Origin: Spirochaetales bacterium
GTDB taxonomy: Bacteria > Spirochaetota > Spirochaetia > SZUA-6 > RPPD01
Assembly: GCA_016934415.1 (NCBI GenBank)
Contig: JAFGSW010000003.1
Coordinates: forward strand, 1 to 64,000
Length of the DNA stretch: 64,000 nucleotides
Direction: 5' to 3'
The position numbers and the translations under genes are program-made. Numbering within the stretch: the first letter of the stretch is position 1; every line of letters begins with the position of its first letter. The notes below the pieces were generated by a model. That model worked only from the letters and a program-made list of their open reading frames with translations, searched no databases and had not been told where the DNA came from. Shown one piece after another: positions 30,311 to 35,539 of this stretch.

Positions 30311-30330
30311 GCGCGGATGAAGAGGGGCAG
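30265..30330 (+). repeat. Family A arm overlapping the truA 3' end
   Basis: GAAGAACTACGGATAGGACG and CGGATGAGCGCGGATGAAG. Partner of the reverse arm at 30495-30545, which reads CCGCGTCCCATCCGCGTTCA. Confidence 0.8.
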
Positions 30331-30456
30331 GGAAGAGTTTTTAATGAGCTGGGAAGACTTTTCAATGAGTGGGGAAGACTTTTCAATGAGTCGGGAGGAC
30401 TTTTCAATGAGTCGGGAGGACTTTTCAATGAGTCGGGAGGACTTTTCAATGAGGGT
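30331..30456 (+). repeat. 21-bp minisatellite, six tandem copies
   Basis: Unit GGAGGACTTTTCAATGAGTC plus one base, six copies head to tail; the fourth and fifth are identical, the outer ones diverge. Because 21 is a multiple of three and the unit lacks stops in several frames, the ORF track shows repetitive ORFs on both strands (LFNESGG, SSRLIEK); I consider these non-coding. The array sits in the core between the two family A arms. Confidence 0.9.
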
Positions 30457-30570
30457 GGGGAAGAAATTTTTTCGTTTTTCCTCCCCCCTCTCCTTTATAT
30501 CCGCGTCCCATCCGCGTTCATCCGTAGTTTTGCCTTCTCTTGAGTGCTCAGTACAGGATAAAATGTACAT

Positions 30571-31257
30571 ATGAGTGACGCTTCAAACCGCGCGAAACAA
30601 TATTACGAACTCCTCAACCTTTACGGCGATTACGTGCGCACGGGGTTCCGTTCGGCGCACGCTGCGCCGGTCCTGAAAAAGCCGGACGACACGGCGGCGC
30701 GGAAGGGGGCGCTCGAGAAGCTCGGCGCCGAGGTGCGGGCCTGCACGCGCTGCGACCTCTGCCACAATAGGCTCAAGGCCGTGCCCGGCGAGGGAACGCT
30801 CGATCCGCTCGTCATGGTTGTGGGCGAGGCGCCCGGCGCGGACGAGGACGAAACCGGCCGGCCCTTCGTGGGCGCGGCCGGGCAGTACCTCGATAAGTGG
30901 CTGCAGGCGATTCACGTCACCCGCCGGACGAACGCCTACATCGCAAACGTGATCAAGTGCCGGCCGCCGCAAAACCGCGATCCCCGGCCAGAAGAAACGG
31001 GCGCCTGCCTTCCGTATCTCACGCGCCAGGTCGAGCTCCTGCGGCCCCGCTTTATCCTGGTCGTGGGCCGCGTCGCCGCCCAGGTCCTCCTGCGCGAGGA
31101 GCGCGGCATCGGCGCCCTGCGCGGCGGCACGTATCGCTTCCAGGACGTCCCCCTCGTGCCCACCTACCACCCCAGCGCCGTGCTCCGCGACCAGTCCCTG
31201 CGGGCGAGAGTCTGGGACGACCTCAAGCGCCTGAAATCGCTCTTCGAACATGCCTGA
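30571..31257 (+). CDS. Uracil-DNA glycosylase, family 4
   Basis: 228 residues. It removes uracil from DNA. Motif 1 GEAPGADEDETGRPFVGAAG and motif 2 with YHPSAVLR are those of family 4. The iron-sulfur cysteines appear as CTRCDLC, IKCRPPQ and TGACLPYL. The first 60 residues are a typical variable N-terminal extension. A -10-like TAAAAT ends 6 bases before the ATG and no ribosome-binding site is visible, suggesting a leaderless message. The gene overlaps priA by 8 bases; both serve DNA maintenance. Confidence 0.93.
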   Translation: MSDASNRAKQYYELLNLYGDYVRTGFRSAHAAPVLKKPDDTAARKGALEKLGAEVRACTRCDLCHNRLKAVPGEGTLDPLVMVVGEAPGADEDETGRPFVGAAGQYLDKWLQAIHVTRRTNAYIANVIKCRPPQNRDPRPEETGACLPYLTRQVELLRPRFILVVGRVAAQVLLREERGIGALRGGTYRFQDVPLVPTYHPSAVLRDQSLRARVWDDLKRLKSLFEHA

Positions 31258-33232
31258 ATACTGCGACGTCGTCTTCAACCTGCCCCTCGACCGTTCGTTC
31301 GTGTACGAGTGTTCGCAGCACCCCGATTGCGCCGTGGGCAAGCGCGTGCGCGCGCCGTTCCGGGGGCGGCCGCTTACGGGGTTTGTTATCGCCCTGCGTG
31401 AGACGGCCCCGGAGGGCGGCTTCTCGATCAAGCCTATCGACCGCGTCATCGACGGCGAGCCGGTCTTCGGGAAACGCACCCTCGAGCTCGCCTCCTGGCT
31501 TTCGGGCCTCTATCTGTGCGGCCCGGGCGAGGCGCTCGCCCTTATGGTGCCGGGCGGCAAACGGGAGGTGGAGACCGAGGGGGCGATCACGTTCCACGAC
31601 TCGGACGAATTCAAGGTCGAGGCGCTCACCGCCGCGCAGGAAGAGGCGCTTGAGAAGATCCGCGCGACGACGTCGCCCTTCTTTTATCTCTACGGGGTGA
31701 CCGGCTCGGGCAAGACCCTCGTCTTCCTGCACGCGGCGAAGGAAGTGTTCGAAAAGGGCAAGGGTGTCATTTACCTGGTGCCGGAGATCGCCCTGACGCA
31801 CCAGGTGATCGGCGCGTTCCGGCAGGTGTTCGGGAAGGAGACCGCGGACCGCGAGCTGGCCGTGCTCCACTCGGGACTCACCGCGTCGCAGAGGCTCACC
31901 GAGTGGCGGCGCGTGCTTGCGGGGAAGGCCCGGTTGGTGGTGGGCGTGCGGAGCGCAGTGTTCGCGCCGCTGCCAGACCTCGGACTCATCGTCCTCGACG
32001 AGGAGCACGAGTCCACCTACAAGGCCGGGGCCACGCCGCGCTACCACGCGCGTCAGGCCGCCATGCACCGGGTGCGGACCGAGGGCGGACTCCTCCTCAT
32101 GGGGAGCGCCACGCCCTCCCTGGAAGCCTGGCACGGCATGCGGACCGGGAGCCTGGAACGCGCCGCGCTTTCCGACCGGGCCACCGGCGCCGCCCTCCCC
32201 AAGGTCGAGATCATTGATCTGAAGCCGGACGAGGGGCCGATTTCCCGGCGGCTGGCCGCCGAAATCGAGGCGGTGAAAAGCCGGGGCCGGCAGACCATTC
32301 TCTTCTTGAACCGCCGCGGCTTCAGCCACTTTTTCGTCTGCCGCTCATGCGGTTTCGAGCTGAAGTGCAAACGATGCTCGGTGGCGCTTACCTTTCACAA
32401 GGCGCGCGGTCTTCTCGTCTGCCACTACTGCGGATTCAAGACCGCTCCCGTCTCCGTCTGCCCGGAGTGCGGTTCGCTCGATGTCGGCTACCTGGGCTTC
32501 GGTACGGAGCGGGTCGAAGAAGAGCTCGCCCGCCGCTTTCCGTCTCTCTCCGTCGCGCGCCTCGACGCGGACACGGCGAAGGGGAAGAGGTCGATGGGCG
32601 AAACCCTGGCCGAATTCAAGGAGGGGAGGATCGACCTTCTCCTCGGCACCCAGATGGTGGCCAAGGGCCTCAACGTGCGCGGGCTGTCCCTCGTCGGCGT
32701 CGTGCTTGCGGACACGAGCCTCATGCTTCCGGACTTCCGCGCGGCCGAGCGCACCTTCAACCTCATCGTGCAGGTGGGCGGCCGGGCCGGCCGCTTCGAC
32801 CGCGACGGCACGGTGTTCATCCAGACCTACCGATCCTCCCACGACGCTGTGTCCTGCGCCGCGCGCTTCGCGGTGGAGGAATATTACGAGCGCGAGCTCG
32901 AGGTGCGCCGCGAGCTCGGCTTTCCGCCCTTCACGCGGCTCGTGCGCCTCGTCTTCCGGGGCCGGGAAAAGGACGCGGCCGAGCGGGCGGCGGACGAAAC
33001 CGCCTCCCGCTGCCGCGAGACCCTCGCGTCCGAGGACCGGGGAGACAGCGAGGTCCTCGGCCCGGCCGAGTGCCCGCTGGGAAAGATCGCGCACAACTAT
33101 CGCTTCCAGCTCATCCTCCGCGGCGCCGACTCAAGCGTTCTGCGCAACGCCGTGAAGCACGCCCTGGCCGCGGGCAATCCGCCGGCCGGGGTGTACGTGG
33201 AAGTGGACGTCGATCCGCAGTCGTTATTGTAG
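31250..33232 (+). CDS. priA: Primosomal protein N' (replication restart helicase PriA)
   Basis: 660 residues. N-terminal 3'-end-binding domain (DVVFNLPLDRSFVYEC), Walker A YGVTGSGKTLVF, DEEH box LDEEHESTY, motif III MGSATPSLEAW, and the zinc-binding module with paired cysteines (CRSCGFELKCKRC, CHYCGFK, CPECGS). C-terminal helicase motifs follow (LLGTQMVAKGLN, QVGGRAGR). It restarts collapsed forks; the window also holds RarA, another fork factor. Slightly shorter than E. coli PriA, normal for this phylum. Confidence 0.96.
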   Translation: MPEYCDVVFNLPLDRSFVYECSQHPDCAVGKRVRAPFRGRPLTGFVIALRETAPEGGFSIKPIDRVIDGEPVFGKRTLELASWLSGLYLCGPGEALALMVPGGKREVETEGAITFHDSDEFKVEALTAAQEEALEKIRATTSPFFYLYGVTGSGKTLVFLHAAKEVFEKGKGVIYLVPEIALTHQVIGAFRQVFGKETADRELAVLHSGLTASQRLTEWRRVLAGKARLVVGVRSAVFAPLPDLGLIVLDEEHESTYKAGATPRYHARQAAMHRVRTEGGLLLMGSATPSLEAWHGMRTGSLERAALSDRATGAALPKVEIIDLKPDEGPISRRLAAEIEAVKSRGRQTILFLNRRGFSHFFVCRSCGFELKCKRCSVALTFHKARGLLVCHYCGFKTAPVSVCPECGSLDVGYLGFGTERVEEELARRFPSLSVARLDADTAKGKRSMGETLAEFKEGRIDLLLGTQMVAKGLNVRGLSLVGVVLADTSLMLPDFRAAERTFNLIVQVGGRAGRFDRDGTVFIQTYRSSHDAVSCAARFAVEEYYERELEVRRELGFPPFTRLVRLVFRGREKDAAERAADETASRCRETLASEDRGDSEVLGPAECPLGKIAHNYRFQLILRGADSSVLRNAVKHALAAGNPPAGVYVEVDVDPQSLL

Positions 33233-33354
33233 GCGGACGTGTCATCCGCCGGCGCGGACCTTTTCGGCTGTGGGATTTCCTTCCATAAGGGAGGACACGA
33301 AGGGCGCGAAGAGAAAGAGAAGAACGCGAAGAAGAAAAAAGGAGATCACCGATT

Positions 33355-34134
33355 ATGAAAAAAGCCGTGTCATGCGCGCTGTTTGTCGTGTATTGCGTTT
33401 CATCGATCTGCGCCCAGGATAAGGTCGAAAATCTCGGCCGTTATTTCGACGGCTTCAGCGGATGCTTCGTGCTTTACGACGAGTCGAAAAAAGAGACGGT
33501 CGTATACAACGAAAGCAAGAGCGCGAAGCGGATCTCGCCGTGTTCCAGTTTCAAAGTCGTCCACGCCCTGATAGGACTGGAGACGGGTGTATTGAAGGAC
33601 GAAAACAGCTCGTTCCAATGGGACGGCGCGAGATACCCGGTGCGGGAGTGGAACAGAGACCAGACGCCGGCTTCGGCGGTAACATTTTCGGTCGTGTGGT
33701 GCTTCCAACAGGTGGCCCGGAAGGTGGGAAAGGAAAGGGAGCAATACTACGTCGATAAAATCGGATATGGCAACAGGGATTTGTCCGGAAGCCTGACCGG
33801 TTTTTGGCTGCAATCGTCTCTGAAAATCTCGCCGAAGGAACAGGTGGAAATGCTGAAGAGGTTTTATCACTACCGGCTTCCGTTTTCCAAGCGGAACGTG
33901 GATATCGTGAAGAAGATACTGGTGTTGTCGCGAAATAACGGAACTGTTTTTTCGGGTAAAAGCGGTTCGGGCGCGAACGGCGACAAGGCGGTCAATGGCT
34001 GGTTCATCGGGTATATCGAAAAAGCGGGCGCGGTGTATTTTTTCGCCTTGAACATTGAAGGCGAAAACCGAGCGACGGGCTCCATGGCGAAAGAGATTGC
34101 TCAAAGAATATTACGAGATAAGAATCTGCTGTAA
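33355..34134 (+). CDS. Class D (OXA-type) beta-lactamase
   Basis: 259 residues. Signal peptide 1-20 (ending SSICAQ), so periplasmic. All class D signatures are in order: SSFK (active Ser and the lysine normally carboxylated) near residue 64, the S-x-V motif in FSVVWCFQQ, YGN in KIGYGNRDLSG, the omega-loop Trp in FWLQSSLKISPKEQV, and KSG in FSGKSGSGANG. It hydrolyses beta-lactams, or may serve as a related penicillin-recognising sensor; the lack of an adjacent integral-membrane sensor gene favours the enzyme. Codon use is visibly more AT-rich than its neighbours. GGAGATCACC precedes the start. Confidence 0.88.
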   Translation: MKKAVSCALFVVYCVSSICAQDKVENLGRYFDGFSGCFVLYDESKKETVVYNESKSAKRISPCSSFKVVHALIGLETGVLKDENSSFQWDGARYPVREWNRDQTPASAVTFSVVWCFQQVARKVGKEREQYYVDKIGYGNRDLSGSLTGFWLQSSLKISPKEQVEMLKRFYHYRLPFSKRNVDIVKKILVLSRNNGTVFSGKSGSGANGDKAVNGWFIGYIEKAGAVYFFALNIEGENRATGSMAKEIAQRILRDKNLL

Positions 34135-34184
34135 GCGAGCCGGAAGCGTCGTCTTCCCGTGGCTCGCCTCCTCGGTTTCTTTTC
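34135..34184 (+). terminator. Hairpin after the beta-lactamase gene
   Basis: GCGAGCC (34135-34141) pairs with GGCTCGC (34161-34167), with inner GGAAG/CTTCC pairing, then a T-rich GGTTTCTTTTC a few bases further on. It begins at the stop codon. Confidence 0.55.
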
Positions 34185-34233
34185 TCCGTACGCTCCGTTT
34201 TTCTGTGGCGGGCACGCGAATGGCTTCCGCTGG

Positions 34234-35469
34234 TCAGGCATCTTCCAGCATGAGGAGCGCCATCACTTTCGCGTCTCCCGCCATGTGGTCGACCACGCAG
34301 TACTCGTTGGGCATGTGAGCCTGGTGGTCGATCCGCGACCAGACCGCGGTGTCGATGCCTGCGCGGCGCAGGTAGGCGCCCACCGTGCCGCCGCCTATCC
34401 CCACCGGCCGGGCCGCGACCCCGTAGACGGTCTTGACGGCCGCCGTCAATCGCGACACGAGGGGCGAGGAAGCCTGCGTGGCGGGAGACGATTCCCGCTG
34501 AACGGTTTCCATGCTCACGGACACGCCGTATTTCGTTTCGACATCCCGGGCGGCGGCCTGAATGCGGCCGTAGACCCCGTCCAGATTCTCGGCCGGCAGG
34601 ATCCGGCAGTCGACGTAAAAAACGTCATCGCCGGGAATGGTGTTGACGTTGGGGACGTTCGCTTCCTTTTTGGTGGGGGAGAAGGTGGAGACCGGCGGGT
34701 CGAAGAGGGCGTCCGAGCGCGCGTAGGCGCGGTTGAGTTCGTCGATCCGAAGCACCAGGTCCGAGGCGGCCACGAACGCGTTTTTGCCCCGGTGCGGAAT
34801 CGAACCGTGCACCTGCACGCCTTTGGTGCGGATTTTGAGCCAGAGGATGCTTTTTTCCGCGATCTCGATGGCGGAGCCGTCGGGCTCGCCCGCGTCGGGG
34901 ACCAGGGCGAGCCCCGGTTTGCGGAACGGCTCCGGAAAGTGATCGAGGAGATACTTGATGCCGTAGGTCGAACCGGTCTCCTCGTCGGCGGCGAAAAGAA
35001 GGCTGACGTCGGCCGCGGGGGTGAGGCCGAGATTCTTCAGGGCGAGGAGGGCATGGAGCGAGGCGACCAGGCTCTGCTGGTTGTCCTCGGTCCCCCGGCC
35101 GTAGAGTTTCCCGTCCGCCTCGCGCAGGACGAACGGATCGCCGGTCCAGGCGGCGAGGTCGCCGGGCGGCACCACGTCCAGGTGGGTCATGATCCAGAGA
35201 ACGCGGCCGCGGTCGCGGCCCGGCCGGGTGACGAGCAGGCTGGGCCGCTCCCCGGAAGGCGCGCGGGAGTCGGGTGCGGCCATCCGCTCGATTTTCGAAA
35301 ACCCCATCCCGCGGACATGCTCTTCGAGAAAGGCGGCCTTCTCGCTTTCACCGCGGCCGCCGGACTCCGGCGCGATCGCGGGGAGGGCGGTGAGCCGCCG
35401 TTGAAGCTCGATCATGTCGGGGCGCAGGCGCTCGATTTCGGCGAAAAGGACATTGATGTCGGGTTTCAT
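34234..35469 (-). CDS. M20 family metallopeptidase / dipeptidase
   Basis: 411 residues from the ATG at 35467-35469, preceded by AAGGAGTCC. Metal ligands appear as THLDVVP (His and catalytic Asp), GRGTEDNQQS (bridging Asp), ADEETGS (general-base Glu and metal ligand) and, near the C-terminus, RIDHQAHMPNEY (His). It is the M20 fold shared by ArgE, DapE and small dipeptidases. The pattern with VHGSIPHRGKNA in the lid domain matches peptidase subgroup members annotated as M20 family metallo-hydrolases. Probably a cytoplasmic aminopeptidase/dipeptidase; substrate uncertain. Confidence 0.88.
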   Translation of the reverse strand: MKPDINVLFAEIERLRPDMIELQRRLTALPAIAPESGGRGESEKAAFLEEHVRGMGFSKIERMAAPDSRAPSGERPSLLVTRPGRDRGRVLWIMTHLDVVPPGDLAAWTGDPFVLREADGKLYGRGTEDNQQSLVASLHALLALKNLGLTPAADVSLLFAADEETGSTYGIKYLLDHFPEPFRKPGLALVPDAGEPDGSAIEIAEKSILWLKIRTKGVQVHGSIPHRGKNAFVAASDLVLRIDELNRAYARSDALFDPPVSTFSPTKKEANVPNVNTIPGDDVFYVDCRILPAENLDGVYGRIQAAARDVETKYGVSVSMETVQRESSPATQASSPLVSRLTAAVKTVYGVAARPVGIGGGTVGAYLRRAGIDTAVWSRIDHQAHMPNEYCVVDHMAGDAKVMALLMLEDA

Positions 35470-35539
35470 TATGGACTCCTTGAGCGGTATCGTCGTGAGA
35501 CGGGATTCAGCGTAGGACAATCGTGGAATTTCCGCAAGT

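Follow-up and report, generated by a model that had tools for sequence, protein, structure and literature searches.

Does the protein encoded at positions 33355–34134 destroy beta-lactams or merely sense them, and how did its gene come to lie at this site? The gene sits in the first 64,000 nucleotides (the window) of a contig from a Spirochaetales bacterium, and the sequence-only reading had described it as a divergent class D beta-lactamase acquired from elsewhere, while leaving room for a BlaR-type sensor domain. Enzyme or sensor is the right question to ask, because the best profile and structure-database matches of the protein are BlaR1/MecR1 sensor domains: the top NCBIfam profile is BlaR1_generic (294.5 bits for a cut-off of 400, the alignment being confined to the sensor half), and among PDB sequences the BlaR1 domain 1nrf ranks first. 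The evidence presented below makes it highly probable, in our judgment, that the gene encodes a homologue of class D (OXA-type) serine beta-lactamases that stands alone and is secreted, and that it was horizontally acquired into the junction between priA and an M20 peptidase gene.

Gene, Motifs, and Fold

The open reading frame (ORF), whose boundaries match the ORF list exactly, lies on the plus strand, starts with ATG, and encodes 259 amino acids. The sequence AAGGAG, 10 nt 5′ of the ATG (33339–33344, plus strand), resembles a Shine–Dalgarno element and may act as one; a scan for promoters and terminators gave nothing convincing on the strand of the gene. The N-terminus (33355–33414) looks like a signal peptide, MKKAVSCALFVVYCVSSICA followed by QD, with a cleavage site placed by eye and low model confidence over residues 1–19, and from it we infer that the protein would be exported. 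Further along, the motifs appear in class D order: motif 1 PCSSFK (residues 62–67; 33538–33555), with the nucleophile Ser64 and with Lys67, which is expected to be carboxylated (roles from PMC12389319); the SxV motif as SVV (residues 112–114; 33688–33696), in which Val114 occupies the position that discriminates enzymes from sensors (PMC9045261); YGN (residues 138–140; 33766–33774); the omega-loop FWL (residues 150–152; 33802–33810), whose Trp and Leu belong to the wall of the pocket around the carboxylated lysine (PMC12389319); KSG (residues 202–204; 33958–33966), an accepted form of K(S/T)G (PMC12389319); and GWFIGY (residues 215–220). All the OXA signatures announced from the sequence, the omega-loop Trp included, were thus located. 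Two elements of the seven-motif fingerprint of Gram-negative OXA enzymes are not matched, PASTFK being replaced by PCSSFK and GWxxGW by GWFIGY (PMC12389319).

Database matches agree with this assignment. PF00905 is the sole Pfam domain of the protein (E = 8e-41), and the NCBIfam class_D_main profile matches far beyond chance (E = 7e-74), its 248.1 bits falling 2 bits short of a curated cut-off of 250, which is an annotation threshold and not a defining feature of class D. The PDB search returned 136 sequences at E ≤ 0.001. An AlphaFold model built from 16 sequences (pLDDT 84) superposes on MecR1, BPU-1, OXA-10, and BAT-2 alike, with TM scores of about 0.81–0.86, a fold match that is common to enzyme and sensor and does not discriminate between them. 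The gene and its class D active site are confirmed as real.

Enzyme or Sensor

A survey of 24,916 OXA-domain proteins showed that some class D enzymes are closer to BlaR than to other class D proteins, and it distinguishes the two groups by length (less than 350 aa in class D vs. more than 550 aa in BlaR) and by two features of BlaR, namely a motif II whose third residue is polar, together with an M56 domain (PMC9045261). By length, motif II residue, and M56 domain alike, the protein falls on the enzyme side. We compared residues in 72 aligned sequences, comprising 11 BlaR/MecR domains, 60 other stand-alone proteins, and the window protein. At the third position of motif II, Asn or Thr occurs in all 11 BlaR/MecR domains but in none of the 60 stand-alone proteins, where Val (53) predominates over Ile (6) and Tyr (1); the window protein carries Val there. 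Likewise, the omega-loop residue Leu152 is a Leu in the window protein and in 60/60 stand-alone proteins, and is variable in BlaR. In class D enzymes, the hydrophobic residue of motif II and the omega-loop Leu sequester the carboxylated lysine (PMC12389319). The BlaR1 sensor of Staphylococcus aureus has SVN, and about a month passed before its adduct with the inducer CBAP was seen to deacylate (PMC5957439).

A free-standing BlaR1-type sensor or beta-lactam trap would stay acylated and would signal or sequester instead of hydrolyzing. Besides the highest profile and PDB scores, which are to BlaR1, and a position beside the BlaR clade in our trees, this explanation can invoke Ala245, the equivalent of Arg250, an arginine that is also absent from 11/11 BlaR domains. 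However, Ala occupies this position in 17 of the 60 stand-alone proteins as well, BPU-1 among them, and the remaining observations run against a sensor. Motif II carries Val where every BlaR/MecR domain is polar, the transmembrane M56 protease domain is absent from the 259-aa protein, and the genome (93% complete) has no PF03965 match that would indicate a BlaI/MecI-type repressor and no PF05569 (M56) match above cut-off, its one subthreshold match being on another contig. The window protein also falls outside the BlaR clade. We consequently regard a sensor or trap as highly improbable. Every discriminating test that was run favors an enzyme over a sensor, and the original description of the protein as a class D homologue rather than a sensor is upheld by the motif II Val, by the tree, by the fact that the protein stands alone, and by the lack of a bla regulon in the genome.

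The SSFK Motif and Two Cysteines

The SSFK motif had been called unusual. This is correct insofar as the Thr of motif 1, replaced by Ser in PCSSFK, is more than 99% conserved among Gram-negative class D enzymes (PMC12389319), but it is overstated: in our alignment, PCSSFK and KSGSG are identical in OXA-9, and PCSSFK occurs together with KSGAG in a homologue from the same phylum (L049). SSFK is, on this comparison, rare rather than new. The same-phylum homologue clusters with OXA-9 (100/100; L049, L057), SSFK and KSG being common to the two, a grouping that offers a possible lead to wider kin of OXA-9.

Two cysteines lie at active-site motifs of the window protein, Cys63 (33541–33543) directly before the catalytic Ser, and Cys116 (33700–33702) past SVVW. 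The pair is present in only 2 of the 72 aligned sequences, those of the window protein and of a cyanobacterial SZAS-4 homologue (L007), and could form a disulfide near the active site.

Phylogenetic Position

Whether 53 or 72 proteins are included, the trees unite the BlaR/MecR domains in a single clade (100/99) that leaves out the window protein. The latter and a homologue from the Sporomusa termitida plasmid pSPTER adjoin this clade (85/92 for the three together), and the support for the window protein as sister of BlaR is weak (67/74). AU tests rejected none of the alternatives that group it with the Sporomusa protein, with the cyanobacterial SZAS-4 protein, or with two homologues from its own order (p-AU 0.25–0.38; 0.376 for the last). 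Because these alternatives to the finer branching order stand unrejected, the placement that we claim from the trees is limited to "outside the sensors, near them", with no firm branch. Placement among sensor domains in a phylogeny including OXA and BlaR-type sequences had been named as an outcome that would speak against an enzyme; the position found is outside them.

This position also allows a broader, tentative scenario, which we hold at low confidence: the window protein and its Sporomusa relative might be surviving soluble enzymes of the lineage that gave rise to the BlaR1/MecR1 sensor domain, or might have been freed from that domain and have regained turnover. If so, both proteins would show the switch between enzyme and sensor at the motif II residue, and, if truly sister to the BlaR sensors, the window protein would help to reconstruct how a sensor of antibiotics arose from an enzyme that destroys them.

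Origin of the Gene

The gene is flanked on the left by priA (replication restart helicase; 31250–33232, plus strand; NCBIfam match) and on the right by a convergent gene for an M20 family metallo-hydrolase (34234–35520, minus strand; NCBIfam and Pfam matches). It is contained in a stretch of 1,001 bp running from the priA stop to the M20 peptidase stop (33233–34233). In one genome of the same family (G002), priA and the M20 peptidase gene are also convergent, their stops abut, and the 1,001-bp stretch is absent. In the other (G001), the junction is occupied by other genes over about 8 kb with 45% GC (L103, 1923–9832), so that it seems to be a variable site.

In the order, 3 of 26 genomes have a match, and neither of the two same-family relatives does; across the class, there were four matches in 395 genomes, including the window's own and a marginal one. 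The genome collection was scanned once, with a single protein as the query, and close relatives may have escaped that scan. The two other homologues of the order are 37–39% identical to the window protein and stand apart from it in the best trees.

Horizontal acquisition had been proposed from AT-rich codon use. The gene does have a GC content of 51.5%, where the window as a whole has about 62%, but when it is ranked against 207 ORFs of its own genome, which were picked mechanically and make the percentiles rough, it lies at the 8th percentile for GC and, with 67%, at the 26th for GC3. Composition is thus a weak sign of transfer, and these within-genome ranks rule it out as proof. It is the patchy distribution and the empty site in G002 that support the proposal, so that the conclusion stands and the codon argument for it is weak. 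That no mobile element lies beside the gene is borne out: neither transposase nor integrase occurs among ten nearby proteins scanned and the flanking genes. Around the gene, a search for flanking repeats and target-site duplications yielded just short, chance-like repeats. Elsewhere in the window, a 21-bp unit is repeated in tandem about 5.9 times (94% matches) at 30330–30453, between truA and a family 4 uracil-DNA glycosylase gene, and dispersed short repeats of the CATCCGCGTCC type (208–1612, 9677, 30299, 30498–30519, and others) have 17 matches with at most one mismatch vs. 3.6 expected.

Taken together, these findings make it probable that the gene entered the priA/M20 junction by horizontal transfer. 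As G002 is a single genome, the gene may instead have been lost there. More generally, vertical inheritance with repeated loss in relatives would concern the origin only and is compatible with an enzyme; it would fit the presence of a homologue in two other genomes of the order and a composition within the range of the genome. Both same-family genomes lack the gene, however, and the two order homologues do not group with the window protein in the best trees, although the AU test does not reject such a grouping; we consider vertical inheritance unlikely. The assembly consists of 102 contigs, which makes a chimeric contig possible in principle, yet the gene order of the left flank is as in relatives.

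Proposed Function

If the protein works as class D enzymes do (roles from PMC12389319), Ser64 would attack the beta-lactam ring to give an acyl-enzyme. Lys67 would undergo carboxylation in a pocket that Val114, Trp151, and Leu152 close off, and would serve in both steps, as the general base and then by activating the water through which the acyl-enzyme is released. A proton shuttle would involve Ser112 and Lys202, and Ser203 would hold the substrate carboxylate. Lysine carboxylation, turnover, and a protective role are all predictions, and hydrolysis of beta-lactams by the window protein is likely.

Conserved motifs are no guarantee of activity, because the YbxI/BAC-1 cluster keeps them and is nevertheless classed, like the CDD proteins of Clostridioides difficile, as pseudo-class D (PMC9045261). 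The window protein could similarly be a low-activity protein whose natural role is other than antibiotic hydrolysis, perhaps a minor cell-wall function; the precedent of such proteins with intact motifs, the failure to find a class A beta-lactamase in the genome, and the lack of any sign of antibiotic selection nearby are in line with this. On the other hand, 7 of 10 homologues from previously untested clusters hydrolyzed a beta-lactam (PMC9045261), and a distribution this patchy is more in keeping with an accessory gene than with a core function in the cell wall; we judge a pseudo-enzyme to be very unlikely. The gene may also be a reservoir candidate, as was suggested from the sequence; that class D genes have reservoirs in the environment is established (PMC9045261).

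Comparison with Known Proteins

The window gene adds one divergent homologue to a class D family already known to be very diverse, and is in itself unsurprising. Genes of this kind are rare in its bacterial class, and the case illustrates how a best match to BlaR1 can lead the annotation of a soluble enzyme astray. OXA-63-type genes are typical of Brachyspira; within the same phylum we observed a genome with a gene of this type (fragment L048, 355.8 bits) and, at G194:C52 in a genome of the phylum, an OXA-63-like gene broken by stop codons (L050, L054).

Among specific enzyme subfamilies, the best-scoring profile is that of the OXA-1089 family (243.5 bits), which corresponds to OXAVL02, an enzyme of environmental origin that acts on imipenem (PMC9045261); given the cut-off of 580 bits, the window protein is not a member. 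OXA-9 has in common with it the residues PCSSFK, SVVW, and KSGSG but is only about 35% identical and belongs to a distant, well-supported clade, so that the SSFK/KSG likeness is likely convergent. The class D proteins of Bacillus (BPU-1, BAT-2, and BSU-2; 38–41% identical) are also stand-alone, with a hydrophobic SxV residue and no Arg250, but have PQSTFK and KTG and form a separate clade (100/100). The BlaR1/MecR1 sensor domains (1nrf, 2iwb) are 36–43% identical, provide the best sequence match and are among the best fold matches, and resemble the protein in its Ala at the Arg250 position; unlike it, they have SxN or SxT, are joined to a transmembrane M56 half, and work with BlaI as a partner. 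The closest homologue found is the pSPTER protein of Sporomusa termitida (WP_246105656.1, annotated as a penicillin-binding transpeptidase domain protein), 48% identical over 98% of the query. It belongs to Negativicutes, is encoded on a plasmid with transposase genes a few kb away, and differs by PCSTFK and KTG, but like the window protein it is stand-alone, has SVV as its SxV motif and FWL, and lies beside BlaR in the tree.
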